A DNA stretch of 64,000 nucleotides from Terriglobia bacterium (GTDB lineage: Bacteria; Acidobacteriota; Terriglobia; JAIQFV01). Below the pieces are notes generated by a model, which did no database searches, was not told where the DNA came from, and worked only from the letters and a program-made list of their open reading frames with translations. The stretch lies in contig JAIQFV010000025.1 of the NCBI GenBank assembly GCA_020073085.1, positions 1 to 64,000 on the forward strand, read 5' to 3'. Shown piece by piece: positions 4,945 to 28,019 of this stretch (its first letter is position 1; each line of letters opens with the position of its first letter). Made by a program: the position numbers and the translations under genes.

Positions 4945-5712
4945 GTGGTGACAACTATGGGTCAAGCTTGGCCGCGTCCGTCGCAGAACGTGCGGCTGAC
5001 CGGCGATGACGTCCATGTCTGGCGAGCCTCTCTCTCCCCATCCGTTCCCTTGGTCGACCAGATGGCCGGACTCCTTTCGGACGATGAACATGAAAGGGCC
5101 GGGAGGTTTCATTTTCAAGTGGATCGAAGGAGATTCATTGTGGGGCGCGGCCTTTTACGCACCCTCCTTGGAACATACCTTGAAGTTCAACCGACAGCCC
5201 TACGATTCCAATACGAACCCCAAGGTAAACCCTACCTGGCGGCGCCAGAAGGTAAAGAAAAATTGTCTTTTAATTTATCCGATTCAGGAGATTTGGCGCT
5301 TTATGCGTTCGCCCTGAACCGGAGAATTGGAATCGACCTGGAACGGCTTCGGGCCGTTCCTGATCTGTTGGAGATTGCCAAGCGATTTTTCGCCCTGGAA
5401 GAATTTGAGGAATTATGTTCACTCCCCGCCGACTTGCAGCGAGAGGGGTTCTTCCGGTGTTGGACCCGAAAGGAAGCCTATCTAAAGGCCATTGGAGAAG
5501 GATTAGGGGTTCCACTGGACCAATTTGTTGTCTCGCTTGATTCCAGAGATGGGGCAAGAGTGGTCCGTGTCCTGGGGGACCCTGAGGAGGCCGCGCGGTG
5601 GTCTCTCACGGAACTCGCTCCCGCCGCGGATTATGTCGCCGCGCTTGCCGTCGAGGGGCAGCCGTGGCAGCTCTCCTGTTGGGATGGGACGGCCCTCCCC
5701 CCACTTCTTTAA
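4945..5712 (+). CDS. Sfp-type 4'-phosphopantetheinyl transferase
   Basis: Transfers the phosphopantetheine arm of CoA to the conserved Ser of carrier domains, converting apo-PCP/ACP to holo. At 255 aa it has the usual Sfp/Gsp length. Visible motifs are GKPYL (about 94-98), FNLSDSGD (about 108-115), GIDLE (129-133, with the metal-binding Asp131 and Glu133) and WTRKEAYLKA (173-182, with Glu177 and Lys181). The start is GTG at 4945 (or the adjacent GTG at 4948), 6-9 nt behind GGGAG at 4934; the ATG at 4957 is too far from it. The gene lies 830 bp upstream of, and in the same direction as, the megasynthase genes, so it very probably activates their six carrier domains. Confidence 0.93.
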   Translation: MVTTMGQAWPRPSQNVRLTGDDVHVWRASLSPSVPLVDQMAGLLSDDEHERAGRFHFQVDRRRFIVGRGLLRTLLGTYLEVQPTALRFQYEPQGKPYLAAPEGKEKLSFNLSDSGDLALYAFALNRRIGIDLERLRAVPDLLEIAKRFFALEEFEELCSLPADLQREGFFRCWTRKEAYLKAIGEGLGVPLDQFVVSLDSRDGARVVRVLGDPEEAARWSLTELAPAADYVAALAVEGQPWQLSCWDGTALPPLL

Positions 5713-6231
5713 ACGAATTCGGAAATTGAATGTGCAGGACCGAGTATGGTGCAGCTGGTTCGCCAAGGAGACCCCACGATCACCAGGCGATCATGTACAG
5801 GACTCTCAAAAATTTAGCCGACCGGTGGTGCGCCTGTGCCCTGAAAGAGCCGGAGAACAAACAACGATTTTCTGACGCACACAATTTCCAGATGTGTCAA
5901 TTTTGAGTGGATCGCGAATGATGGAATATTTAATTCGAGGAAACAGTCGTGAGCTTTCAGATAGAAGGTTGTCAACTTCCTGTATTCCTGGCCTCCTAAT
6001 AAAGGGTTTTCTCGCCATGGTAGGCGCGGAATCTGCGTCTCATCCGACAATCGAGGCGTGAAGTCTGAGAAGTTAGTTCAACGACACTTAAGTTCCGCGC
6101 AGGTGGGCGCAAGGGCGTGCCTGTGTGAGCGAGTGTCAACGGTGGTATCGGGGGTATTTTCATGATAGTCTTTAAGTCAGTGACTGGTGGGGCTGGGAGG
6201 GAGTATCCCCGCCTGAACTCAGGAAAGGGAT

Positions 6232-6247
6232 TTCCCAAATTTGGGAA
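6232..6247. promoter_or_regulatory. Perfect 16-bp palindrome, candidate operator
   Basis: TTCCCAAATTTGGGAA is self-complementary over all 16 bases and lies about 300 bp upstream of the first NRPS start. One such palindrome is expected by chance in a window of this size, so only its position makes it a candidate operator. Confidence 0.25.
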
Positions 6248-6486
6248 TTCTCCCGAGGCAGATTTCGCCGCTCATCCACTGAAGAGAAGGACATTCCAGG
6301 CTGTGCAAGTGTCGAAGCAGCGGTGTCCGTATCGGATAAAACTTATGAAATCAGAGTTGGACCCCGGATCAGGAAGAAGCGCGCCCGGAGACATCCTTCG
6401 TAACAATTTTTTCACAATTCATGTGTACAATCTCTTGAGACAAGGAAGGGCCTCTTGGAGGCCACGTCAACAATACAACTCGTAGA

Positions 6487-6542: not shown

Positions 6543-9500
6543 TTGAAAACACAAGAAAAAGTGACCGAACCCAGGGAAGGGAGGATAGAGGATTCCTATT
6601 CCCTCTCTCCGATGCAGCAGGCCATGCTGTTCAACTATCTGGATGACCGGCATTCCGGCGTTGATATCGAGCAGATCGTTTCGACCTTGCATGAAAGAGT
6701 GCACCCTGCTCACTTCCAACAGGCCTGGCGGAGGGTGGTGGAGAGGCATCCTATTCTGAGAACCACCTTTGAATGGGAAGCCCTTGCAGATCCTGTTCAA
6801 CGTGTGCACAGTCATGCATTCCCACCGTTTGAAGAGTTCGACTGGCATTCACTTTCCCCGGCCGAGCAGGAAAAGGGATTGACCTCGTATCTCGATTCGG
6901 ATCGCCACCGCGGTTTTCTGCTCAATGAACCGCCGCTGATGCGGATTGTCCTGTTCCAAATGGGTGCTGAGGACTATCGATGTGTGTGGACATTCCACCA
7001 TGCCCTTCTGGATGGGCGGTCTTTTCCGCTCGTGCTGAAAGAAGTGTTTGCCTTCTACGAAGCCTTCTCGCAGGGGCGTGAACTGACATTGGATGTTCCC
7101 CGCCCCTTTGGCGACTTCATCAACTGGTTTCAGGAAAAAGATCATTTGAAGTCGGAGCCTTTCTGGAAGGAAATGCTCAAGGGGTTTACCACCCCAACCC
7201 TCTTAAACCTTTCTCGCGAGCCCGTTCAAGAGCCGGGGGCCAAGACTCATGGAGCCCGGGAAGTTCGGCTTTCAAAGGAATTGACCGCCGCTTTGAATTC
7301 CTGCGCGCGCGAGAATGGACTCACGGTGAACACGTTTATCCAGGGGGCGTGGTCGTTGCTGCTTCACCATTACAGCGGCGAAGACGATGTCGTTTTCGGC
7401 GCCACCCGGGCCTGCCGCCGCACTGCCCTGGAGGGGGCGGAGTCGATGATGGGGATCTTTATCAACACCCTTCCGGTCAGGGTGCAGATGACCTCCGATA
7501 TGTCGCTCATCCCTTTTCTCAAGGGGCTCCGCGCTCAGCAAGTTGTCTTGCGCGACTATGAACACACCCCGCTTCACCTGGTTCAAGGATGGACAGAAGT
7601 GCCCCGGGGGAAGCCATTATTTGACAGCATCGTGGTTTTTGAGAACTATCTCTTAAACGCTGCCTTGCGCGCGGGAGGCGGCCATTGGCTTCACCGTGAA
7701 TTCCGCTATATCGGGCAGACGAATTTTCCTCTCACTCTGATTGGATACGCTGACGAAGAACTTCTTCTCAGAATTGAATACTATCGAAACCGCTTCGATG
7801 ACTCGGCGATTGAACGGATGCTGGTCCATTTGAAAGTTCTCCTGGGCAACATGGTCGCCAATCCAAACCAGAGGTTGGCAGAAGTAAAGATTTTGGGAAA
7901 CGATGAATACCGGCAATTGGTGGAGGGTTGGAATGAGACCGCAGTGGCCTATCCCGAGGGGGTGTTGCTGCATCAGCTCTTTGAGGCCCAGGTGGAGAAG
8001 ACGCCCGACGCCGTGGCGGTGGTGTTCGAAGGGGAGCAGTTGAGCTACCGTCAACTCAACCAGCGGGCCAATCAACTGGCGCACTTCCTTCGTTCCCTGG
8101 GGGCCGCCCCCGACACCTTCGTCGGCGTATGCATGGAGCGCTCCCTGGAGATGGTCGTGGCCTTGTACGGGATCCTCAAGGCGGGCGCCGCTTATGTGCC
8201 CATCGACCCGGACTATCCCCGCGAGCGGGTGGCCTTCATGCTGGAGGACGCCCACACCCCGGTGCTGTTGACCCAGCAGCGGCTGGCTGCCGATCTGCCC
8301 GCGCACGGGGCACGGATGGTGTGTTTGGACACCGCCTGGCCGGAGATTTCACAGCACCGGGGTCAGAACCCGGAGGTGACCGCTACCGCCGGGAATCTCG
8401 CTTACATGATTTACACCAGCGGCTCCACCGGCAAACCCAAGGGGGCCATGAACACGCATCGCGGCATCTCGAACCGCCTCCTGTGGATGCAGGAGCGGTA
8501 TCAGCTGACGGCGGCGAATGTGGTGATGCAGAAAACCCCGTTCAGTTTCGACGTCTCGGTGTGGGAGTTTTTCTGGCCGTTACTCAACGGCGCCTCGCTC
8601 GTGGTGGCGCGGCCGGGGGGACACCAGGACCCGGCCTACCTGGCGGATTTGATTGAGCACCGCCACATCACCGTGCTGCATTTCGTGCCTTCGATGCTGC
8701 GGGTGTTCCTGGAAGAGCCGGGGCTGGAGCGCTGTCGTTCACTGCGCCATGTCATCTGCAGCGGCGAAGCGCTGGGCTTTGATCTGCAGGAACGGTTCTT
8801 CGAGCGCCTCCACGCGCAGTTGCACAACCTGTATGGCCCCACCGAGGCGGCCGTGGATGTGACGCACTGGACGTGCCAGCCCAACAGTCCCCTGCACTTT
8901 GTCCCGATCGGACGGCCGGTGGCCAACACCCAAACCTATATCCTGGACGGACGCCTGCAGCCGGTGCCGATCGGGGTGGCGGGCGAGTTGCATCTGGGCG
9001 GGGTGCAGATCGGACGGGGCTACCACAACCGGCCCGAACTGACGGCCGAGAAATTCATCCCCGATCCGTTCCGACAGGAGCCCGGGGCTCGGCTGTATAA
9101 AACGGGCGATCTGGCGCGCTATTTGCCGGACGGCAACATTGAGTTTCTGGGTCGCATCGACCACCAGGTCAAGATCCGCGGCTTGCGCATTGAACTCGGC
9201 GAGATTGAATTCCAGCTGGCAGCCCATCCGGCGGTGAAGGAGGTCGTTGTGGTGGCTCGCCAGGATGAGCCCGGCGACCAACGGCTGGTGGCTTATCTGG
9301 TCGCGGGCGAAGCCGCGGCGCCGGGCACCAGCGAGCTGCGGACCTTCCTGCTGCACACCCTGCCTGACTACATGGTCCCGGCTGCTTTTGTGTGGCTCAA
9401 GCAACTCCCCCTCTCCCCCAACGGCAAAGTCGACCGCCGCGCGCTGCCGGCCCCTGACAAGACCCAGCGCGATCTGGAAAAGCCTTTCGTCGCGCCGCGA

Positions 9501-9818
9501 ACCGAATTGGAACGGGCGCTGGCCGGACTCTGGCAAAGTGCACTCAACGTGGAAAAGGTCGGTTTGGAAGACAATTTCTTCGAACTCGGCGGGCATTCCC
9601 TGCTTCTGGTTCAGGTCCATGGAAAACTGCGGGCGCATCTCCACCGCGACCTGCCCATCACCGAGCTGTTTCAATACCCCACCATCCGTGCGCTGGCCGA
9701 GCACCTGAGCGAATCCGCGCCGAAAGAGGGTTCGACCAAGAACATCCGGCGGCGCGCCGAGCGGCAAATCGCAGCCCGGTCACGGCGTGTGGAACTCGAG
9801 AAGGAACTCGACAAATGA
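6543..9818 (+). CDS. NRPS module 1: C-A(Ser)-PCP
   Basis: A nonribosomal peptide synthetase of 1091 aa. The C domain (about 15-440) has the active motif HHALLDG (152-158). The A domain (about 470-975) has A3 YTSGSTGKPKG (from about 625), YGPTE, the TGD motif and NGKVDRRALP. The PCP has LGGHS with phosphopantetheine Ser1019. Residues at the ten specificity positions, read by alignment to GrsA, are D-V-W-H-I-S-L-V-D-K. This is nearly the serine code of EntF (DVWHFSLVDK), so Ser is activated. A C domain precedes the first A domain, so the chain may start by acylation with a fatty or other acyl donor, or the first substrate arrives in trans. The start is TTG at 6543 behind AGGAG. The basic C-terminal tail probably docks to the KS protein, whose ATG overlaps this stop (ATGA). 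GC content rises sharply at the C/A boundary. Confidence 0.93.
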   Translation: MKTQEKVTEPREGRIEDSYSLSPMQQAMLFNYLDDRHSGVDIEQIVSTLHERVHPAHFQQAWRRVVERHPILRTTFEWEALADPVQRVHSHAFPPFEEFDWHSLSPAEQEKGLTSYLDSDRHRGFLLNEPPLMRIVLFQMGAEDYRCVWTFHHALLDGRSFPLVLKEVFAFYEAFSQGRELTLDVPRPFGDFINWFQEKDHLKSEPFWKEMLKGFTTPTLLNLSREPVQEPGAKTHGAREVRLSKELTAALNSCARENGLTVNTFIQGAWSLLLHHYSGEDDVVFGATRACRRTALEGAESMMGIFINTLPVRVQMTSDMSLIPFLKGLRAQQVVLRDYEHTPLHLVQGWTEVPRGKPLFDSIVVFENYLLNAALRAGGGHWLHREFRYIGQTNFPLTLIGYADEELLLRIEYYRNRFDDSAIERMLVHLKVLLGNMVANPNQRLAEVKILGNDEYRQLVEGWNETAVAYPEGVLLHQLFEAQVEKTPDAVAVVFEGEQLSYRQLNQRANQLAHFLRSLGAAPDTFVGVCMERSLEMVVALYGILKAGAAYVPIDPDYPRERVAFMLEDAHTPVLLTQQRLAADLPAHGARMVCLDTAWPEISQHRGQNPEVTATAGNLAYMIYTSGSTGKPKGAMNTHRGISNRLLWMQERYQLTAANVVMQKTPFSFDVSVWEFFWPLLNGASLVVARPGGHQDPAYLADLIEHRHITVLHFVPSMLRVFLEEPGLERCRSLRHVICSGEALGFDLQERFFERLHAQLHNLYGPTEAAVDVTHWTCQPNSPLHFVPIGRPVANTQTYILDGRLQPVPIGVAGELHLGGVQIGRGYHNRPELTAEKFIPDPFRQEPGARLYKTGDLARYLPDGNIEFLGRIDHQVKIRGLRIELGEIEFQLAAHPAVKEVVVVARQDEPGDQRLVAYLVAGEAAAPGTSELRTFLLHTLPDYMVPAAFVWLKQLPLSPNGKVDRRALPAPDKTQRDLEKPFVAPRTELERALAGLWQSALNVEKVGLEDNFFELGGHSLLLVQVHGKLRAHLHRDLPITELFQYPTIRALAEHLSESAPKEGSTKNIRRRAERQIAARSRRVELEKELDK

Positions 9819-12800
9819 AAGAGAACCCAAAAAGCAAATCCATCGGCGATGTGGCTGTCATCGGTATGGCAGGCCGATTCCCGGGTGCGCGGAATATCGA
9901 GTCTTTCTGGCGGAACTTGAAAAACGGGGTGGAGTCCATCCGATTTTTCACCGACGAGGAACTGGCCGCCGCCGGGGTCGATGCCGAGTTGCTGTCAAAC
10001 CCGAGCTATGTCAAGGCCCGGGGGGCGCTTGAAGACATCGATCTGTTTGACGCCGGGTTCTTCGGTCTGATTCCCAGAGAAGCCGAAACGATGGACCCGC
10101 AACATCGCCTCTTCCTCGAGACCTGTTGGGAGGCGCTGGAAAACGCCGGATACGACCCCGAGAAGTACGACGGAGCCATTGGACTTTGCGCTGGCGTCAA
10201 CATGAGTACGTACCTGTTCGCCAACCTCGGCGCCGACCGGGAGTACATTGAAAGTTTGGTCAGCTCCACGGATGCTGGCGCCTTCCAGATTTATCTAGCT
10301 AACGAAAAAGACCACTTGACCACACGCGTCGCCTACAAACTCAATTTGAAGGGGCCGGCTATAACGGTGCAGACCGCATGTTCCACCTCCCTGGTGGCGG
10401 TCTGCCAGGCCTGTCAGAGCCTGCTGTCCTACCAATGCGACATGGTGCTGGCCGGAGGGGTGGCGGTGACAGTTCCGCAGATAGGGGGCCATCTGTATCG
10501 GGAAGGCGCCATCCTGTCCCCGGACGGGCACTGCCGCGCCTTTGACGCCCAGGCTCAAGGCACCTTGTTCGGAAGCGGGGTCGGCGTCGTTCTGCTGAAG
10601 CGGTTGGAGGAAGCCCTGGAGGATGGCGACACCATCCTGGCCGTCATCAAGGGATTTGCCTTGAACAATGACGGATCTTCTAAAGTCACTTATACGGCCC
10701 CCAGCGTGGACGGCCAGGTGGATGTGATAGGGCTGGCGCAGGCCCTTGCCGGTGTGGACGCCGACACCATCAGCTACGTCGAGGCCCATGGTACGGGGAC
10801 CCCGCTGGGCGACCCGATCGAGATCGCCGCGTTGACCCAGGCCTTTCGACAGAGCACCGACAAGAAAGGGTTTTGCGGCGTCGGGTCGGTGAAAAGCAAC
10901 ATTGGACACCTCGACTCTGCGGCGGGTGTGGCGGGTTTGATCAAAACCGTCCTTGCGTTGCAGCACAATTTGATTCCCCCCTCGTTGCATTTCACCGAGC
11001 CCAATCCTAAGATTGATTTTGCCAACAGCCCCTTCTACGTGGTCGCGCGGCCGACCGAATGGCCCAATCACGACACGCCCCGCCGCGCCGGTGTCAGCTC
11101 GTTTGGTATTGGTGGAACCAACGCGCACGTGGTGCTTGAAGAGGCGCCCCCGCGCGAGCCTTCAGGGCCGTCCCGCTCTCGACAACTGCTGCTCGTCTCG
11201 GCCCGGTCCGCTGCAGCGTTGGACCAGGCGACCACTGCCCTCGCGACACACCTCCGAACGCAGCCTGACCTGAGCCTGGCCGATGTGGCTTACACACTCC
11301 AGGTGGGCCGCCGTGCATTCCCGCAGCGTCGAATGGCGGTTTGCGGTGATGCGAACGACGCCGTGGAGGTCCTTGAGAAGCGCGACCCCAAGCGCGTATT
11401 CACACAAGCGGCTGAGCAACACGACCCGCCGGTGATGTTCATGTTTCCCGGCCAGGGCGCTCAATATGTGAATATGGGCGCCGAAATCTACCGGACCGAA
11501 CCTGTATTCAAAGAGGCCATGGACCGGTGTGCCGAGTTGCTGCAACCGCATCTGGGTCTGGATTTGCGGTCTATTCTCTATCCCCCGCCCGACCAGGTTG
11601 CGGTGATGGGGGAGCGGCTACTGCAAACACAGATCACTCAGCCCGCTTTATTTGCGATTGAATATGCCCTCGCGCAGTTATGGATCAGTTGGGGGGTGCG
11701 GCCGGCGGCGATGATCGGCCACAGCGTCGGTGAATATGTGGCCGGCTGCCTGGCGGGGGTATTCCCGCTGGAAGAGGCCCTGCCCCTGGTGGCGAACCGC
11801 GCGCGACTGGTACAGGCTCAACCCCGCGGGGCCATGGTGGCTGTTCGCCTGCCCGAGAGTGAGATTCTGCGGCTGCTGAACGCAGATCTCTCCATCGCCA
11901 CGATCAACTCGCCTTCGCTGTGCGTCGTCTCCGGACCTTTCGTCGCCGTGGAGGCCTTCGAGCAGCGACTGAAAGAGGCTGGCGTGGTCAACACGCGGCT
12001 GCATACCTCGCACGCCTTTCACTCGGCGATGATGGAGCCGGTGCTGGCTCCGTTCACGGAAATCCTCAACAAAGTCCGGTTTCATGAGCCGAAAATTCCA
12101 TACGTCTCGAACGTCACCGGCCGCTGGGTCACCACGGCTGAATCCACCGACCCCCATTATTGGGCCGGCCACGTGCGCCAGGCGGTGCGGTTTGCGGACG
12201 GTGTCGCCCTGTTGCTCGAGAACCCGCACGCGGTGTTGCTGGAGGTGGGTCCCGGCCACACGCTGACCGCATTGACACGACAGCATCCGGCCTGTGCGAG
12301 AAAGCAGGTGGTGCTGGCATCCCTTCCGACGGCCGAGGATCCGGAGGAGCAGTCGGTCCTCACCGCGCTGGGCCGAGCGTGGCTCGCAGGCGTGACCGTG
12401 GATTGGACGGCATTTTACACGCAAGAGCAGAGGCGGCGTGTGGCTCTGCCGACCTATCCTTTTGAGCGGCAACGCTGCTGGATCGAGCCCGACCGGTCGG
12501 TGGGCCAGCGGGCGAGCCGCCCTCTCGCTGCTGCAGCGCCGACGGAGGGCCTGCCGGCAGCCGTCCCGGGCGGGCAGGCTGCGATAGTCTCCGCCGTCCC
12601 GCCGGCAACCCGCAAAGAGCAGATCGTTTTAGAATTAAAAAATCTGCTGCAAGAGTTGTCGGGGATAGATTGCGGTGACGTGGAGAACAACACCACCTTT
12701 GTGGAAATGGGTTTTGAGTCGCTTTTCCTGACGCAGGTCAGCGCCGCCATTGAAAAACGTTTTGGCCTTCGCGTCGCCTTCCGCCAATTGCTGGGGGAAT

Positions 12801-15800
12801 TTTCCACGCTCGACAAGCTGGCCGATCAACTGGAGAGCGTTTCCAGGCCCGCGGTGGCAGCAGCGCCGGAGCTGGTGGCCGCGAGTACTGGTCCGACCGA
12901 CCAGAAGGCGCCTCTGACCGAAGCGCAGCGGGAAGTGTGGCTGGCCACGATGATGGGCGGCGACGCCTCGTGTGTCTTCAACCAGTCGTGCACGTTAAAT
13001 TTCCATGGGCTCCTGCGACGGGAGGCTCTCGAGCGAGCCATGGAGGGATTAATCTCCCGGCATGAAGCATTACGGACCACATTCTCGGAATTGGGCGATT
13101 TCCAGCAGATTGCGCCGAAGCTGACGGTGGAATTGTCTTTCTTTGACCTTTCGCAAATCGAGCCGAGCCAGCGCGATAACCAGCTGGCGGGGATGTTGGC
13201 CAATGAAGCGTCGAGTCCATTCGACCTCGTACATGGACCCGTGTTGCGCGCGCGGGTAGTGAAGCTGGAAGATCGACACCATGCGCTGATGTTCACGATC
13301 CATCACATCGTGTGTGACGGCCGTTCGCTGGCCCTGTTGTTACATGATCTGGGCGAATTGTATTCCGCGGAATGTCAGGGGCTGCCGTCTCAACTCACTC
13401 CGCCCCGGTCCCTGAGAGAATACGCGCAGGAGGGCGCCCGGTTGATCCAAAGCCCGGAGTACGCGGAAGCCGAGGCCTACTGGCTGAAGCAATTTGCGGA
13501 TGAACCGCCGGCGCTGGAGTTGCCCACCGACCGGCCGCGGCCGCCGGCGAAGACCTTTCGCGGGGCGCTCATCAACGTGGTCGTGCCACCCGAGCTGTGC
13601 CAGCAACTCAGACGCGCCAGTACCCGTTACGGCTGCACTTTGTTTACGACGCTTTTGGCCGCTTACTTTTTGTTTTTGCATCGGCTGACAGGCCAGGAAG
13701 AAATCGTGGCAGGCGTGCCCGTTGCCAGCCCGGGCGTTGAGGGGAAGGATCGCCTGGTCGCCCACACCGTCAACTTTTTACCGGTGCGCGGCCGCCTCGC
13801 CGACAGCATGCGGTGGACCGAGCATCTGGAGGCGGTAAAACAGGTGTTCCTGGAGGCCTACGAGCACCGCCATGTCACTTACGGCACCCTGATTCAAAAA
13901 CTGAAGTTGGGACGCAACCTCAGCCGGATGCCGCTGGTGTCGGCCGCATTCAACTTCGCCCATGGGAAACAGACGCTGCGGTTTTTTGAATTACAAACGC
14001 AACTTGGCCTCAACCCATACAGCTTCACCAATTACGATCTCAACTTCGATTTCAGCGAAGATGAGGATTCGTTGGAACTGGATTGCATTTATAACGCAGA
14101 CCTGTTTGAGGTGAATACAGTCCAGCGCTGGTTGGGCCACCTGCAGACTCTGTTGGAAGCCATCGCGGCCCATCCCACGGATCCCATCGCGGCGCTGTCG
14201 TTATTGTCGGAACGGGACCGTCATCGATTGCTCATCGAGTGGAACGGCACACAGTCCGATTATCCTTGCGACGTCACTTTAACGCAGCTCCTTGAGGCCC
14301 AGGCTGCGCGAACTCCCCAGAGAGTGGCCGTTGTCGCAGACGACAAGACGCTCACTTATTCTCAGCTGAACACCCGGGCCAATCAATTGGGTGCTGCTCT
14401 CCAGGCGTGTGGGGCTGGGCCGGATTCGATCGTCGGTCTCTACCTGGAGCGCTCATCCAACTTGCTTGTCGCCCTGCTGGGTGTGCTCAAGGCCGGAGGT
14501 ACCTATCTGCCCCTGGACCCAGCCTTCCCCCGCGAGCGACTGGCCTTCATGATCGAAGACTCCCAGGCTTCGGTATTGCTCACCGACTCACAAATGCTGC
14601 CGACCCTGCCTCCCCATTCTGCCCGGGTTCTGCTCCTCGATGATCCAGCACTGAACTCAATGGGAGAAGAGAATCTACCCGTGGAGTCCGGTCCCGAGCA
14701 TCTGGCTTATGTCCTTTACACCTCCGGGTCAACGGGCAAGCCGAAGGGGGTGCAGATTCCGCACCGCGCCGTGGTCAATTTCCTGCATTCCATGCAGCGG
14801 GAGCCCGGTTTGACGGCGGACGACGTTCTGCTTGCAGTCACCACGTTATCGTTCGATATCGCCGGGTTGGAGTTGTACCTGCCCTTGATGGTGGGAGCGC
14901 GGGTCGTGGTGGCAAGCCGCGAGACCGCTGCCGACGGCATACGACTGGCTGATCTTATGGAGCGCTCTGCGGCCACGGTCATGCAGGCCACTCCGGCGAC
15001 GTGGCGAGTGCTTGTGGAATCCGGATGGAAGGGCAACCCGTCGCTCAAAATTCTCTGCGGCGGGGAAGCTCTGTCCCGCGAGTTGGCGCAACAACTGCTC
15101 TCCCGCTGTGGTGAGCTGTGGAATCTCTACGGACCCACCGAGACAACCATCTGGTCGACAGCCGCTCGAGTCTCGGCGTCGGATGAAAAGATCACCATTG
15201 GCCGACCCATTGCCAACACCGAAATTTACATTCTGGATTCTAGTCTTCAACCGGTGCCGGTCGGAGTCGCAGGGGAGCTTCACATTGGCGGCGACGGGCT
15301 GGCCCGGGGTTATCTCAACCGTGACGAGCTGACGGCTGAGCGCTTTATCAACCATCCTTTCAACTCCGACCCGGGGGCTCGCCTTTACAAGACCGGCGAC
15401 CTCGCCCGTTATCGGGCCGATGGCAACATTGAACACCTCGGGCGCCTGGACTTCCAGGTCAAGCTGCGCGGTTTTCGCATTGAATTGGGTGAGATCGAGT
15501 CATTGCTGCGACAACAGAGCGCGGTGCGTGAGGCGGTCGTGATCGTGCGCGAGGACACGCCCGGGGACCAGCGGTTGGTTGCCTATCTACTCGCACGGCC
15601 GGGCCAGACCCCCGACTTCGCGGAGTTGCGCCAGTACCTGCGTACTTCCCTTCCTGACTATATGGTTCCCTCCTTCTTCGTCCTGCTCGACACGCTGCCA
15701 CTGACACCCAACGGTAAGATTGACCGCCGTGCCCTGCCCGTCCCGGAAGGCAAACGACTGGTCGAAATTTCATTTGTCGCACCCCGAACCCCCCTTGAAG

Positions 15801-16075
15801 AATCAGTTGCGAATGTCTGGCAGGAACTCCTCGGCGTTGACCGTGTCGGAATCCACGATGACTTCTTTGATCTGGGGGGACATTCGCTCACAGCTATTCA
15901 GGTTAAATCGAGACTTCTCGAAAGAACGCATGTCGATCTGCCTTTACGCAGCCTGTTTGAATCCCCCACGGTGGCAGGTCTCGCGGAGCAAATCGAAGCC
16001 ATTCGATGGTCGAAACAGAGCGAGGGTGCCTCTGGAGAGAACCTGGAACACGACCGCGAGGAAGTGGAGATATGA
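9815..16075 (+). CDS. Hybrid PKS-NRPS: KS-AT-ACP-C-A(Gly)-PCP
   Basis: A 2086-aa hybrid. The KS (about 12-435) has TACSTS with Cys189, EAHGTGT and the KSNIGH lysine/histidine region. The AT (about 538-850) has GHSVGEY (Ser637) and HAFH (about 731), the pattern typical of malonyl-CoA selection. The ACP (about 925-1000) has EMGFES with Ser969. The C domain (about 1030-1450) has HHIVCDG (1163-1169). The A domain has A3 from about 1632. The final PCP has GGHS with Ser2024. The A-domain code reads D-I-L-Q-L-G-L-I-W-K, the published glycine code. There is no KR, DH or ER, so the two-carbon extension should keep its keto group. It takes Ser from module 1, extends it with malonate, then adds Gly. It overlaps its neighbours by ATGA on both sides. 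Confidence 0.94.
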   Translation: MKENPKSKSIGDVAVIGMAGRFPGARNIESFWRNLKNGVESIRFFTDEELAAAGVDAELLSNPSYVKARGALEDIDLFDAGFFGLIPREAETMDPQHRLFLETCWEALENAGYDPEKYDGAIGLCAGVNMSTYLFANLGADREYIESLVSSTDAGAFQIYLANEKDHLTTRVAYKLNLKGPAITVQTACSTSLVAVCQACQSLLSYQCDMVLAGGVAVTVPQIGGHLYREGAILSPDGHCRAFDAQAQGTLFGSGVGVVLLKRLEEALEDGDTILAVIKGFALNNDGSSKVTYTAPSVDGQVDVIGLAQALAGVDADTISYVEAHGTGTPLGDPIEIAALTQAFRQSTDKKGFCGVGSVKSNIGHLDSAAGVAGLIKTVLALQHNLIPPSLHFTEPNPKIDFANSPFYVVARPTEWPNHDTPRRAGVSSFGIGGTNAHVVLEEAPPREPSGPSRSRQLLLVSARSAAALDQATTALATHLRTQPDLSLADVAYTLQVGRRAFPQRRMAVCGDANDAVEVLEKRDPKRVFTQAAEQHDPPVMFMFPGQGAQYVNMGAEIYRTEPVFKEAMDRCAELLQPHLGLDLRSILYPPPDQVAVMGERLLQTQITQPALFAIEYALAQLWISWGVRPAAMIGHSVGEYVAGCLAGVFPLEEALPLVANRARLVQAQPRGAMVAVRLPESEILRLLNADLSIATINSPSLCVVSGPFVAVEAFEQRLKEAGVVNTRLHTSHAFHSAMMEPVLAPFTEILNKVRFHEPKIPYVSNVTGRWVTTAESTDPHYWAGHVRQAVRFADGVALLLENPHAVLLEVGPGHTLTALTRQHPACARKQVVLASLPTAEDPEEQSVLTALGRAWLAGVTVDWTAFYTQEQRRRVALPTYPFERQRCWIEPDRSVGQRASRPLAAAAPTEGLPAAVPGGQAAIVSAVPPATRKEQIVLELKNLLQELSGIDCGDVENNTTFVEMGFESLFLTQVSAAIEKRFGLRVAFRQLLGEFSTLDKLADQLESVSRPAVAAAPELVAASTGPTDQKAPLTEAQREVWLATMMGGDASCVFNQSCTLNFHGLLRREALERAMEGLISRHEALRTTFSELGDFQQIAPKLTVELSFFDLSQIEPSQRDNQLAGMLANEASSPFDLVHGPVLRARVVKLEDRHHALMFTIHHIVCDGRSLALLLHDLGELYSAECQGLPSQLTPPRSLREYAQEGARLIQSPEYAEAEAYWLKQFADEPPALELPTDRPRPPAKTFRGALINVVVPPELCQQLRRASTRYGCTLFTTLLAAYFLFLHRLTGQEEIVAGVPVASPGVEGKDRLVAHTVNFLPVRGRLADSMRWTEHLEAVKQVFLEAYEHRHVTYGTLIQKLKLGRNLSRMPLVSAAFNFAHGKQTLRFFELQTQLGLNPYSFTNYDLNFDFSEDEDSLELDCIYNADLFEVNTVQRWLGHLQTLLEAIAAHPTDPIAALSLLSERDRHRLLIEWNGTQSDYPCDVTLTQLLEAQAARTPQRVAVVADDKTLTYSQLNTRANQLGAALQACGAGPDSIVGLYLERSSNLLVALLGVLKAGGTYLPLDPAFPRERLAFMIEDSQASVLLTDSQMLPTLPPHSARVLLLDDPALNSMGEENLPVESGPEHLAYVLYTSGSTGKPKGVQIPHRAVVNFLHSMQREPGLTADDVLLAVTTLSFDIAGLELYLPLMVGARVVVASRETAADGIRLADLMERSAATVMQATPATWRVLVESGWKGNPSLKILCGGEALSRELAQQLLSRCGELWNLYGPTETTIWSTAARVSASDEKITIGRPIANTEIYILDSSLQPVPVGVAGELHIGGDGLARGYLNRDELTAERFINHPFNSDPGARLYKTGDLARYRADGNIEHLGRLDFQVKLRGFRIELGEIESLLRQQSAVREAVVIVREDTPGDQRLVAYLLARPGQTPDFAELRQYLRTSLPDYMVPSFFVLLDTLPLTPNGKIDRRALPVPEGKRLVEISFVAPRTPLEESVANVWQELLGVDRVGIHDDFFDLGGHSLTAIQVKSRLLERTHVDLPLRSLFESPTVAGLAEQIEAIRWSKQSEGASGENLEHDREEVEI

Positions 16076-19000
16076 CTCCTATCGAGATTCTGTCCCACTT
16101 GCGCGGGCTGGATATCCGGATCCGGGTGGAGGATGAAAAACTCCGCGTCAACGCGCCCAAGGGGGCCCTGACGCCTCAACTACGCGCAGAATTGGAGAGG
16201 CACAAGGCTGAGCTCGTGGCTTATTTGCGATCGGTCGAAGCCGCTGGGCTGTCTCAGATCCAGCCATTACGGCCGATCCCCAGGCAGACCCACCACCTGC
16301 TTTCCTTTGCACAACAGCGCCTTTGGCTCCTTGACCAAATGGAGCCCGACAGTCCTGTCTACAACATTTCCGGCGGGACGAGCCTCGCAGGTCCGCTCAA
16401 GATAGACGCGCTTGAGCAGGCCCTCAACGAGATCATTCGACGTCACGAGGTTTTACGTACTACCTTTGGTGAATCGGACGAACAGCCTGTCCAGAACATC
16501 GCCCCCTCAATGGTGTTGAAACTCCCTGTTGTGGACTTGACTTCTCTCACAGCGGAGCAGTGTGAACTTGAGATCCAACGAATTGCCGTCGAGGAGGCCC
16601 AAAAGCCATTCAATCTATCGGTCGGCCCTCTTCTAAGCACCGTGTTGTTAAGATTGGCCGATGACCGCCACGTACTCCTGTACACGATGCATCACATTGT
16701 TTCCGACGCCTGGTCGATTGGCATTTTTATGAGGGAACTGGCAACTTTGTACGGAGCCTATTCTACCGGACACCCGACACCCCTCAGCGATCTGCCGGTC
16801 CAGTACGCTGATTTTGCCCACTGGCAGCGGGGATGGCTGCAAGGAGAAGTGCTGGAACTGCAGTTGGCGTATTGGAAAAAGCAGTTGGCGGGGGTTCCCG
16901 CGGTTCTGGAACTGCCCACGGACCGGCCTCGTCCACCTGTTCAGACTTTCGTTGGCGCGGTGGCCACGATGGACCTCCCAAAGGCATTGTCTGAGCAGCT
17001 TCGCAGCCTGGCGCGCAGCGAAGGCGTCACGCTGTTCATGCTCCTGCTGGCGGCCTTTCAGACGTTGCTCCACCGATACAGCCACCAGGAAGATGTGGTG
17101 GTAGGCTCTCCCATCGCCAATCGCAACCGGGTGGAGATCGAGCCGCTGATCGGCTTCTTCGTCAACACGCTCGTGCTGCGCACGGATTTGTCCGGCAATC
17201 CAACGTTCCGTGAACTGCTGTCACGAGTGCGCGAGGTCGCCCTCGGAGCTTACGCCCACCAGGATCTGCCATTTGAAAAACTCGTCGAAGAACTTCGACC
17301 TGAACGCAGCTTGAGTCATTCGCCGTTGTTTCAAGTCGCCTTCTCCTTGGAGAATGCCCCAGGCTCCCCGTTTGAACCGGCTGGACTGACACTCACCCCG
17401 CTGGATTTTGAATGGAAAACCTCCAAGTTTGATCTCACTCTATTCATGCACGAGAGCTCCGCGGGACTGCGAGGCATCCTGGAATACAACACCGATCTGT
17501 TCGATGGATCGACGATGGGGCGGATGCTGTCGCATTTCCACAACCTGCTCGAGAACTTGGTGGCCGACCCCGGACAGCGCATTTCGCAGCCGCCACTGCT
17601 AAGCGACGCCGAGCGGCAGAGGGTAGTGGTGGAATGGAATCAGACTGCTTCGGAATATCCGCGGGACAAGTGTATCCACGAGTTGGTTGAAGCCCAGGTG
17701 GAGCGCACGCCCGATGCGGTGGCGGTCGTCTACGGAGAGAGTGCCTTAACCTACCGGGAGCTTAACTCAAAGGCCAACCAGCTGGCTCACCACCTGCGCG
17801 GCTTAGGGGTCGGGCCGGAGGTGGCCGTCGTCCTTTTCATGGAGCGGTCCGTGGAAATGGTTATCAGCCTCCTGGCAATTCTCAAAGCGGGGGGCGCTTA
17901 TGTTCCACTCGACACCACCTATCCCCCAGAACGCATCAAGGTCATGCTGGAAGATGCAAAAGCCATAGCCCTGATTACCGACCGGGCGGTGACTCCGGAA
18001 TTGCTCTCTCATCCTATCCACGTCCTGCGCCTGGACAAGGGCTGGGAAACTATCGGCCAAGAGCCCGTCGAGAATCCCGTCAATCAGACCCACGGGGAGA
18101 GCCTGGCTTATGTGATTTACACTTCGGGGTCGACAGGAAAGCCCAAAGGGACGTGCATCCCTCACTGCGCCATCAACCGGCTTCTCTCGAACACCAACTA
18201 TATTGAACTTCAGCCTTCCGACCGTGTGGCGCAGGCGTCCAATGCTTCCTTCGACGCCGCCACTTTTGAAATCTGGGGGGCGCTGCTGAGTGGAGCCCGG
18301 TTAGTCGGCATCCCGAGGGACGTGATCCTGTCACCTCAGGCCTTCGCGAAGGCGCTCCGCGATCAGAATATCAGCGTCATGTTCCTGACTACGGCCTTGT
18401 TCAACCAGATGGCCCGCGAGGCCCCGGGGGCGTTCGCCCATCTTCGCTATCTGCTGTTTGGGGGTGAGGCTGTGGATCCCCGGTGGGCACGCGAAGTTTT
18501 GCACACCCATCCACCCCAGCGGCTCTTGCATGTTTATGGACCCACGGAAACCACCACGTTTGCCACATGGCATCCTGTAGACGGTGTGGAGCCGGACGCA
18601 GTGACCATTCCCATTGGCCGGCCCATCTCCAACACGGAGGCCTACATCCTGGATTCAAACCTCCAGCCTGTGCCGATCGGGCTGAGCGGGGAACTGCATC
18701 TGGGTGGGGATGGCCTGGCACAGGGCTACCTGAACCGTCCCGATCTCACGGCAGAAAAATTCATTCCTCATCCGTTCAACCCGGTGTCCGGCGCTCGCCT
18801 CTACAAGACCGGGGACCTGTGCCGATTCCTGGAGGACGGCAGCATCGAGTTCCTGGGGCGCATCGACACTCAAGTCAAGATCCGCGGGTTCCGGGTGGAG
18901 CTGGAAGAAATCGAATCCGTGCTGGACCAACATCCCGGCGTGCAGGAGTGTGTGGTGGTGATGCGGGAAGATACTCCCGGAGACAAGCGGCTGGTCGCCT

Positions 19001-19547
19001 ACCTGGTCCCCCGGAACCAGGGGAAACCGGTGGTCAGCGAACTTCGCGCCCTCCTGAAACAAAAACTGCCCGACTATATGGTGCCGGGCACATTTGTCAT
19101 TCTCGATTCACTCCCGCTCAATCCCAACGGCAAGGTGGACCGACGCGCCTTGCCGGTACCGGACGCATCGCGACCGGACCTGGAAGAGAAGTACGCAGCC
19201 CCGCGCCATCCCGTCGAGGAGGTACTGGTGGGCATCCTGGGCGAAGTATTGGGGCTTGAGCGAGTCGGCATCCATGATAATTTTTTTGAGCTGGGAGGGC
19301 ACTCCCTGATGGCGACCCGGGCCGTCGGTCGAATTCGTGACGCCTTTGAATTCGAACTGCCTCTGCGCCGGCTGTTTGAGGCCCCCACCGCCGCTGAACT
19401 GGCGGATGTCCTACTGCAGGATCCATCGGTTCGTGGGAAGATTGAAAAGAGAGCCCAGGTCCTGCTGAGGCTGGCGGGACTCTCTGCGGAGGAAACTCAA
19501 ACGATGCTCAAAGAGAAGACCTCGGTCACGGGCAAGGGTGATATTCA

Positions 19548-19551
<4 letters not shown>
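16072..19551 (+). CDS. NRPS module: TubC-type docking-C-A(Ile/Val-like)-PCP
   Basis: The start chosen is the ATG at 16072 that overlaps the previous stop (ATGA), giving 1159 aa; an upstream in-frame ATG at 16006 would give an overlap of 70 nt. Residues 1-55 (MTPIEILSHLRGLDIRI...) form a TubC-type N-terminal docking domain. The C domain (about 68-490) has HHIVSDA (207-213), with Ala replacing the usual final Gly. The A domain has A3 at about 680-693, and the PCP carries Ser1078 in GGHS. The specificity code reads D-A-F-F-L-G-V-T-F-K, which belongs to the branched-chain aliphatic group and is closest to Ile codes. The second half of its C domain is nearly identical to that of the last C domain in the next gene. 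Confidence 0.92.
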
Positions 19552-26066
<6,515 letters not shown>

Positions 26067-26194: not shown

Positions 26195-26995
26195 ATGCAT
26201 CCTTTTTACTTTGGTCCACAGGACATGCCGCTCTTCGGCATCTACCATCCTCCGCTGACCCGAGCGGACCGCGAGACGGGCGTTGTTCTTTGCAACACCT
26301 TTGGGAGTGAGTACATCTATTCCCATCGTGCGCTCCGGCAGTTGGCCGTCCGACTGTCCCGGGTCGGATTCCATGTCCTCCGTTTTGATTATTATGGTAC
26401 TGGAGATTCAGGCGGTGAAAGTGATGAGGTGGATCTGGAGCAATGGAAAAAAGACATCACAATCGCCATCAGTGAACTCAAGGAAAGGGCGGGGCTCTCT
26501 AAGGTTTCTCTGATCGGCCTGCGGTTAGGCGCCGCCTTGGGGCTGCTTGTAAGCCGGGAGCGGAACGATGTGGAGAGCGTGCTCCTCTGGGAACCCGTCA
26601 TTGAAGGGAAAGGATACATCAAAGAATTAATGAACCAGCACCAGGGCTGGCTGAAGGAACAGCTGTTTTCTGAATTGAAAGGTCCCGCCCCGAAGAAAGG
26701 GGTCATTGAGATTGTCGGTTTCCCTCTGACGGACCGAATGAAGCAGAGCATCGAATCCATTGACTTGTTATCGCAGGACAGGTGTCCGGTTCAACATGTC
26801 TTGATTGTTCGGAGTTCGAGAGAAAAAGATGATCAATCGTTGCTCAGCAGATTAGGGGGGTTGGGCGTTTCGACCGTCTATAAGGAGATCGTCGCGTCGA
26901 GCCAGTGGCTTGAACGAGAAGGTCTGGGCCAGGTCGTGGTTCCGACCGAAGCGTTGGAAGCCATGGGCCAGTGGATGGCGGAGATCCACCCATGA
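26195..26995 (+). CDS. Alpha/beta-hydrolase-fold protein with Arg at the nucleophile elbow
   Basis: A 266-aa single-domain protein resembling the hydrolases found beside exosortase/EPS loci (exosortase A-associated hydrolase 2 type, by memory of the family). The strand-turn elements NTFGSEY and FDYYGTGDSGG fit the fold. The nucleophile elbow reads G-L-R-L-G at 108-112, placing Arg110 where Ser/Cys/Asp normally sits. It may be non-catalytic, a binding partner, or use another mechanism. It starts 128 bp after the last NRPS stop, on the same strand, and its stop overlaps the next gene's ATG (ATGA), so the two hydrolases are probably made together. A role in chain transfer or release is inference from position. 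Confidence 0.75.
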   Translation: MHPFYFGPQDMPLFGIYHPPLTRADRETGVVLCNTFGSEYIYSHRALRQLAVRLSRVGFHVLRFDYYGTGDSGGESDEVDLEQWKKDITIAISELKERAGLSKVSLIGLRLGAALGLLVSRERNDVESVLLWEPVIEGKGYIKELMNQHQGWLKEQLFSELKGPAPKKGVIEIVGFPLTDRMKQSIESIDLLSQDRCPVQHVLIVRSSREKDDQSLLSRLGGLGVSTVYKEIVASSQWLEREGLGQVVVPTEALEAMGQWMAEIHP

Positions 26996-27903
26996 AAGAA
27001 AGTACCGTTCTCTTTGGAGACCGCAAGAGCCTCGTTGGAATCATAACCGAGCCCGGTCTCGTCGAAGGTCCGACAAACCCGACAGCAGTTCTTCTGCTCA
27101 ATGCCGGCCTGGTTCATCGAGTGGGTCCCGCCCGCCTTTATACCCGAATGGCGCGGAGCCTGGCGGAGGCCGGATTTACGGTCTTGCGCTTTGATTTTTC
27201 CGGGATAGGAGACAGCGAGGTTCGGAAAGATCAGTTGTCATCTGAGGAGAGTGCGATCCATGAAGCGCGGGAAGCCATGGACTTAATGAATACGACCCGG
27301 AAAGTCAGCAAATTCGTCCTGGCCGGAATCTGTTCAGGAGCACACAATTCCCTTCCCATCGCGCTGGCAGATCCCCGGGTTGCGGGCACGCTTCTGATTG
27401 AGAGTTACGGCTACAGCACAACGGGATATATTGTGACGACCTACGTCCGGAGGTTGTTTCGATGGCGGATGTGGTGGAAGCTGCTGACGGGTCAATTGCG
27501 CCCATGGAATTGGTTGCAGTCCACGGTCAGCGCAGTTTCATCAAGGGTCAGCCAGCGGCTCAATGAGGAGAATCCAGCCTGGCAGCCACCTCCCACAGAA
27601 AAAATAATCTCGGACCTGCGTACCCTGGGGCAGCGGGGCGTCCGGCTTTGCTTCATCTATGACAGCTTAGGACCCTCTTATTATTACTACCGGTCCACCC
27701 TGCGACGCGACGTCGAGGCCTCCTGCGATCCGACGAAGATTCAGGTGGTGGCAATCGTGGGAACCGATCATACGTTTACCCCCCTGTTTCAACAGGAGAG
27801 GCTGATCAAAACTGTGTGCGAGTGGGCTCAAGAGAATTTCGGTGCAGGGAACGGAGTCCCGCGCCGCGGGGTTGACGCGCAGGAATCGGTCCTCCCCCCT
27901 TAA
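26992..27903 (+). CDS. Alpha/beta hydrolase with Cys nucleophile, candidate trans-acting release enzyme
   Basis: A 303-aa protein from the ATG at 26992 that overlaps the previous stop; an alternative ATG at 26971 adds seven residues. It resembles the exosortase-associated hydrolase 1 type. The fold markers are LNAGLVHRVGP, FDFSGIGDS and the nucleophile elbow G-I-C-S-G, where Cys114 occupies the nucleophile position. Asp224 (IYDS) and His260 (TDHTF) are well placed to complete a Cys-Asp-His triad. As the only complete hydrolase next to a TE-less assembly line, it is the best candidate for off-loading the peptide by hydrolysis or cyclisation, though that is inference. A strong terminator hairpin follows at 27975. 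Confidence 0.75.
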   Translation: MKESTVLFGDRKSLVGIITEPGLVEGPTNPTAVLLLNAGLVHRVGPARLYTRMARSLAEAGFTVLRFDFSGIGDSEVRKDQLSSEESAIHEAREAMDLMNTTRKVSKFVLAGICSGAHNSLPIALADPRVAGTLLIESYGYSTTGYIVTTYVRRLFRWRMWWKLLTGQLRPWNWLQSTVSAVSSRVSQRLNEENPAWQPPPTEKIISDLRTLGQRGVRLCFIYDSLGPSYYYYRSTLRRDVEASCDPTKIQVVAIVGTDHTFTPLFQQERLIKTVCEWAQENFGAGNGVPRRGVDAQESVLPP

Positions 27904-27974: not shown

Positions 27975-28019
27975 TGCAAAAACCCCGGTGAGCGTTTTTC
28001 TCACAAGGGTTTTTGCGCA
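27975..28019. terminator. Bidirectional terminator hairpin
   Basis: TGCAAAAACCCC pairs with GGGTTTTTGCGCA, and an inner GTGAG pairs with CTCAC around CGTTTTT. The A-tract and T-tract arms let it work on both strands. It sits between the convergent hydrolase and tricorn genes and closes the biosynthetic cluster. Confidence 0.7.

Follow-up and report, generated by a model that had tools for sequence, protein, structure and literature searches.

The DNA analysed here (the window; 64,000 nucleotides) is the start of a contig from a 5.8-Mb Acidobacteriota genome. At 6543-26066 on its forward strand, which also carries the phosphopantetheinyl transferase gene, the hydrolase pair and the hairpin described below, lies a hybrid NRPS-PKS assembly line with the domain order C-A-PCP / KS-AT-ACP-C-A-PCP / TubC_N-C-A-PCP / C-A-PCP-C-A-PCP. 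Using domain searches, we assigned a C-A-PCP NRPS to 6543-9818, a hybrid PKS-NRPS (KS-AT-ACP-C-A-PCP) to 9815-16075 and a C-A-PCP-C-A-PCP NRPS to 19548-26066. The remaining C-A-PCP NRPS carries a TubC_N docking domain and its start was set at an ATGA overlap (16072-19551); the listed start of this ORF is likely too early (16006-16075), and the ATGA at 16072 is a better match to the operon and to the docking domain. A phosphopantetheinyl transferase gene is found at 4945-5712 (PF01648, E 9.6e-19). Upstream of the first NRPS gene there is also a small ORF (6162-6485) that has 79% identity to a same-genus genome and no Pfam match; it could encode a protein or be a conserved leader.

The terminal PCP of the last module occupies 25755-25980, with its Ser codon at 25863-25865 (Ser2106 of the 19548-26066 product), and is followed by ~67 residues before the stop. 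There is no TE or R domain after this PCP in the 19548-26066 product, and our searches of the window cluster turned up no other releasing domain. Searching the whole of the window's genome with PF00975 gave no matches at E 0.001, and a same-genus genome gave a single match that was weak and below the cut-off. In the latter genome (JAIQFY010000019.1, a Terriglobia MAG), the cluster and the gene pair described below are syntenic (66% and 64% identity).

Two overlapping hydrolase genes follow the assembly line

The NRPS stop is followed after 128 bases by H2 (26195-26995; 266 aa), a hydrolase-2-like pseudo-hydrolase that matches TIGR03101 (E 6.1e-31, 107.9 bits). H1, a hydrolase-1-like alpha/beta hydrolase that matches TIGR03100 (E 4.7e-28, 98.3 bits), occupies 26992-27903 and has 303 aa from its ATG, although a longer form from a GTG at 26971 is possible. 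The two genes are coupled by an ATGA stop/start overlap (26992-26995) in which H1 starts within the stop codon of H2. We found no terminator-like hairpin between the NRPS and H2, and one 3' of the pair (27988-28004), using a search that is weak since the hairpin count was near the shuffle mean. AlphaFold2 gave confident alpha/beta-hydrolase folds for both H1 (pLDDT 87.3, pTM 0.84) and H2 (pLDDT 92.6, pTM 0.92), and Foldseek searches with these models returned general lipases and feruloyl esterases only. As both ORFs are alpha/beta hydrolases of the TIGR03101/TIGR03100 kind and both are syntenic in the same-genus genome, they are not chance reading frames. The arrangement reported in the first-pass annotation, with two ATGA-overlapping hydrolase genes behind a last PCP that lacks a TE or R domain, is thus confirmed.

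Predicted catalytic residues

The nucleophile elbow motifs are GLRLG in H2, with Arg110 (codon 26522-26524) at the site where hydrolases have Ser or Cys, and GICSG in H1, with Cys114 (27331-27333) as the predicted nucleophile. These residues, along with Asp224 and His260 of H1, had been picked out in the first-pass annotation and all are present. Cys114 and His260 are invariant across the 77 H1 proteins that we compared. In the model, Cys114 lies between strand 107-113 and helix 115-126, whilst His260 (27769-27771), the predicted general base, is in the loop that joins strand 250-255 to helix 265-283.

The earlier choice of Asp224 as the catalytic acid did not survive the comparison. Position 224 is acidic in only one of the 77 proteins, that of the window itself, and this rules it out as the triad acid. 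The conserved candidate is instead residue 137 (Glu137 in the window, codon 27400-27402), which is Asp, Asn or Glu in 77/77 and directly follows strand 130-136 of the model. Among NRPS TEs of known structure, nearly all have the acid after strand 6, whilst SulM and ObiF1 have it after strand 7 (PMC11298585). Because residue 137 is conserved after strand 6, and 224 is not, the triad is likely to be Cys114-Glu137-His260. In alignment and secondary structure, Cys114, residue 137 and His260 are compatible with the TE triad positions, with the proviso that 32% of the proteins have Asn at 137.

In H2, Arg110 is found in 71 of 72 relatives, an acid at position 133 in 94% (Glu133 in the window, codon 26591-26593, after strand 6) and Trp238 in 97%. 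Profile alignment puts Arg110 opposite Cys114 of H1, Glu133 opposite Glu137, and Trp238 at about the position of His260. With strongly conserved Arg and Trp in the places of the nucleophile and the base, H2 is, as judged from its sequence, a catalytically dead pseudo-enzyme that is strictly conserved in its own right.

Occurrence of the pair in other genomes

To find relatives, we scanned 84,980 species genomes with two H1 peptide patterns as the sole query; the patterns came from a closer set of pairs, the alignment of all nine pairs being too divergent. This gave 270 relatives, and the best 80 were inspected with up to 10 kb of flanking sequence. H2 adjoins H1 in all 80, and the 4-base ATGA overlap occurs in 40/80 other loci. 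Three loci were cut by a contig end, leaving 77 that were informative. An NRPS/PKS carrier domain was found within 416 bases upstream of the pair (median 136), leaving no room for a TE, in 58 of the 77. In another five (L084, L096, L128, L136 and L144), H2 forms an in-frame fusion with the synthase, right after the last carrier domain, where it occupies the place at which a TE would sit. The pair is therefore directly behind a carrier in 63/77 loci. These counts are not independent (there are, e.g., eight Marinobacter). The survey loci span at least 13 named phyla. The first-pass annotation had suggested looking behind other TE-less NRPSs for the pair, and this survey establishes that it is widespread there and not peculiar to the window. 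In four further loci the carrier is 0.7-4.4 kb from the pair.

Ten of the 77 loci had no upstream carrier. A type II TE gene lies beside the pair in two of them (L074 and L107, the second also with a phosphopantetheinyl transferase), and a phosphopantetheinyl transferase and an NRPS lie next to the pair in L141. Three resemble EPS loci (L120, L133 and L137), and the others are L083, L095, L097 and L149. Across the survey, L071, L074 and L107 each have a true PF00975 type II TE gene directly 3' of the pair. In L109 (5386-7125) the gene order is reversed, with H1 starting 15 bases after the carrier domain and H2 following. Two Gemmatimonas MAGs (L082, 14169-17151; L090, 14093-17432) have, a few kb 3' of the first pair, another H2-H1 pair that follows a free-standing A-T unit.

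We also took a second, unbiased sample, of 229 Gammaproteobacteria, in which the H1 scores fell into two cleanly separated groups: canonical proteins above 210 bits and non-canonical proteins below 100 bits. There were 12 non-canonical places: seven directly behind a carrier, one beside an NRPS, three with H2-H1 fusions in carrier-protein loci, and one of another kind.

H2 and H1 are joined in a single polypeptide in L065, L197 (twice), L200 and the plasmid records L261 and L263. The neighbours of these fusions include an amino acid:[carrier protein] ligase (NCBIfam PRK07080) in L197 and L065, and a free ACP in L200, L261 and L263. The second L197 fusion (11711-13453; 580 aa) is beside an FkbH protein (10047-11714) and a small, weakly carrier-like ORF (9778-10014), which suggests a glyceryl-ACP version of the system. 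L263 (9092-10900) is a polysaccharide locus of Shinella that also contains ACP, AMP-binding and PLP genes; the H2 half of its fusion carries Gly (GFGLGA) at the site of the Arg seen in nearly all others. An AMP-ligase gene was also found near the pair in at least two of the four canonical exosortase loci that we examined, one being TIGR03098. What these contexts seem to have in common is a carrier protein loaded with an acyl or aminoacyl group.

A sequence signature on the terminal carrier

The carriers adjacent to a pair share a C-terminal [T/N]LxQ[I/L]A signature, which is found in 57 of 61 such carriers. It is found in only 3/29 carriers that precede a cis-TE and in 12/81 other carriers from the same loci, several of the 12 also being the last before a pair but beyond our distance limit. 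In the window, where it reads TVEQIA (25944-25961), the signature is on the last PCP only among the five PCPs compared (the PKS ACP was outside the comparison). We then used the signature prospectively, with a profile trained without Acidobacteriota and run on 396 Acidobacteriota genomes. The last PCP of the window and two others scored 115-120 bits, against 92 for the rest. The two others (L265 and L266; G121:C133 and G272:C13) are at the ends of NRPS proteins whose next neighbour is a separate PKS protein and not a pair, which rules out the signature as an exclusive marker. Both genomes carry a pair elsewhere, one of them on the same contig. Overall, the signature is associated with pair-bearing systems.

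A proposed two-protein release module

The presence of a Cys/Arg pair directly behind TE-less synthases in so many phyla suggests that it is probably an overlooked two-protein device that frees the finished product from the synthase. From the sequence comparisons above, we consider it likely that H2-H1 is a bipartite trans-acting release (off-loading) module of the TE-less NRPS-PKS. In the proposed mechanism, the finished chain would be delivered by the terminal PCP to a complex of the two proteins. H2 would hold or dock the carrier and complete the substrate site; the fusion of H2 to a carrier in some loci suggests this docking role. Cys114 of H1, aided by His260 and the acid at 137, would attack the phosphopantetheine thioester and so take over the chain as an acyl-S-H1 intermediate. 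Either water or a different nucleophile might then free the product, the second being more probable for an enzyme of the Cys type; such a nucleophile could be an internal amine or hydroxyl or an external acceptor. Since the predicted nucleophile is a Cys and the relatives occur in settings of ACP transfer, we lean towards transfer or cyclisation over plain hydrolysis. The idea in the first-pass annotation of a dead partner and an active Cys enzyme acting together in release is strongly favoured by the 63/77 adjacency, the 80/80 pairing, the fusions and the invariant Cys114 and His260, whilst the heterodimer itself stands as a proposal. The gammaproteobacterial sample, the lack of a PF00975 match in the window's genome, and the free ACPs and ACP-loading enzymes near the other forms of the pair also speak for release. 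Counting against release are the 10 informative loci without an upstream carrier (three of them EPS-like), the Asn at 137 in 32% of H1 proteins, the type II TEs beside the pair in some clusters, and the signature on two carriers that precede PKS proteins.

The strongest alternative is that the two proteins work as an acyltransferase, passing the chain from the carrier to an external acceptor such as a glycan, lipid or amine, with release a side effect of attachment. A Cys nucleophile disfavours hydrolysis, and the relatives in EPS and amino acid:carrier-protein-ligase loci lie beside free ACPs where there is no long chain to release; both observations fit this role. However, in a non-systematic look beside the NRPS-type pairs we found no common acceptor-making gene, and we regard the acyltransferase as a possibility that falls some way short of probable. 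Editing is a less attractive explanation. Separate proteins encoded near NRPS genes recall type II TEs, and the pair might proofread in the same manner whilst the chain exits by another route. Nonetheless, genuine PF00975 type II TE genes are already beside the pair in three clusters, an argument against a proofreading role for the pair; five loci have H2 fused where a TE would be; and the window cluster showed no other releasing domain. An editor is thus unlikely. That these are stray exosortase/EPS genes next to an NRPS by chance is highly improbable: although their best named relatives are exosortase A-associated hydrolases, the absence of an exosortase (TIGR02602) match in the window's genome, scores below both curated cut-offs (H1, 98.3 against 168.45 bits for TIGR03100; H2, 107.9 against 202.75 bits for TIGR03101) and a separate clade rule out an exosortase function for this locus, and a carrier directly upstream of 0/21 canonical pairs against 63/77 here rules out chance adjacency.

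The release module may itself be one instance of something broader. Tentatively, and with somewhat less confidence than would make it our expectation, we suggest that H2-H1 could be a general two-subunit machine for carrier-protein acyl transfer, in which an Arg pseudo-hydrolase grips the carrier or its phosphopantetheine arm and a Cys acyl-transferase does the chemistry. Such a machine would serve NRPS/PKS, exosortase EPS, amino acid:carrier-protein-ligase and FkbH loci, and in the NRPS/PKS setting would constitute an unrecognised class of release system across the bacterial tree.

The way in which the chain is released determines what a nonribosomal peptide or polyketide finally looks like, and release usually goes unexplained in clusters that lack a TE or R domain. 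With a two-gene release module that can be recognised from sequence, genome miners could assign release in many of these clusters. Such a module would also give the exosortase-associated hydrolase pair a first testable role and offer engineering a new kind of off-loading enzyme. A search of the open-access literature found no paper that links the hydrolase pair to NRPS/PKS release, although an earlier description is possible.

Comparison with known systems

The hydrolase pair has been described from exosortase loci, as families that lack an assigned role. The pair described here shares with the exosortase A system-associated hydrolases 1 and 2 (TIGR03100 and TIGR03101) its tandem arrangement, detectable homology and Cys/Arg elbows. 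The first-pass annotation had likewise linked such pairs to exosortase/EPS loci and not to NRPS release; the kinship holds, but the NRPS type is a lineage apart. In the H1 tree, the canonical pairs form one clade (support 100%), from which a 98% branch separates the NRPS type. The canonical elbows are GLCDAA in H1 and GLRxG in H2, whereas NRPS-type H1 proteins have GxCSGA and score 67-98 bits against the TIGR03100 cut-off of 168. Both types occur together in Aliiglaciecola lipolytica E3. The amino acid:[carrier protein] ligase loci are a further point of comparison, as natural fusions of H2 with H1 occur there next to a free ACP, but these loci work on single aminoacyl carriers, with no assembly line.

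TE domains of the Cys type are known, as in SulM and ObiF. Compared with the type I TE domains (PF00975), the pair has a common alpha/beta-hydrolase fold, a predicted nucleophile after strand 5, a His after strand 8 and a place at the end of the line, and its candidate acid follows strand 6, the site used by most NRPS TEs (PMC11298585). However, neither H1 nor H2 matches PF00975, and the pair comprises two proteins, mostly from separate genes, one of which lacks catalytic residues. In the window both are separate genes, and not a C-terminal fusion to the last carrier as in PF00975 TEs. A functional parallel is with the PBP-type TEs such as SurE, stand-alone enzymes that release products in trans from TE-less NRPSs (PMC11735501). 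We propose that H2-H1 acts likewise in trans, but SurE is a single protein of an unrelated PBP/beta-lactamase fold, whereas both H1 and H2 are alpha/beta hydrolases by Pfam and structure searches.
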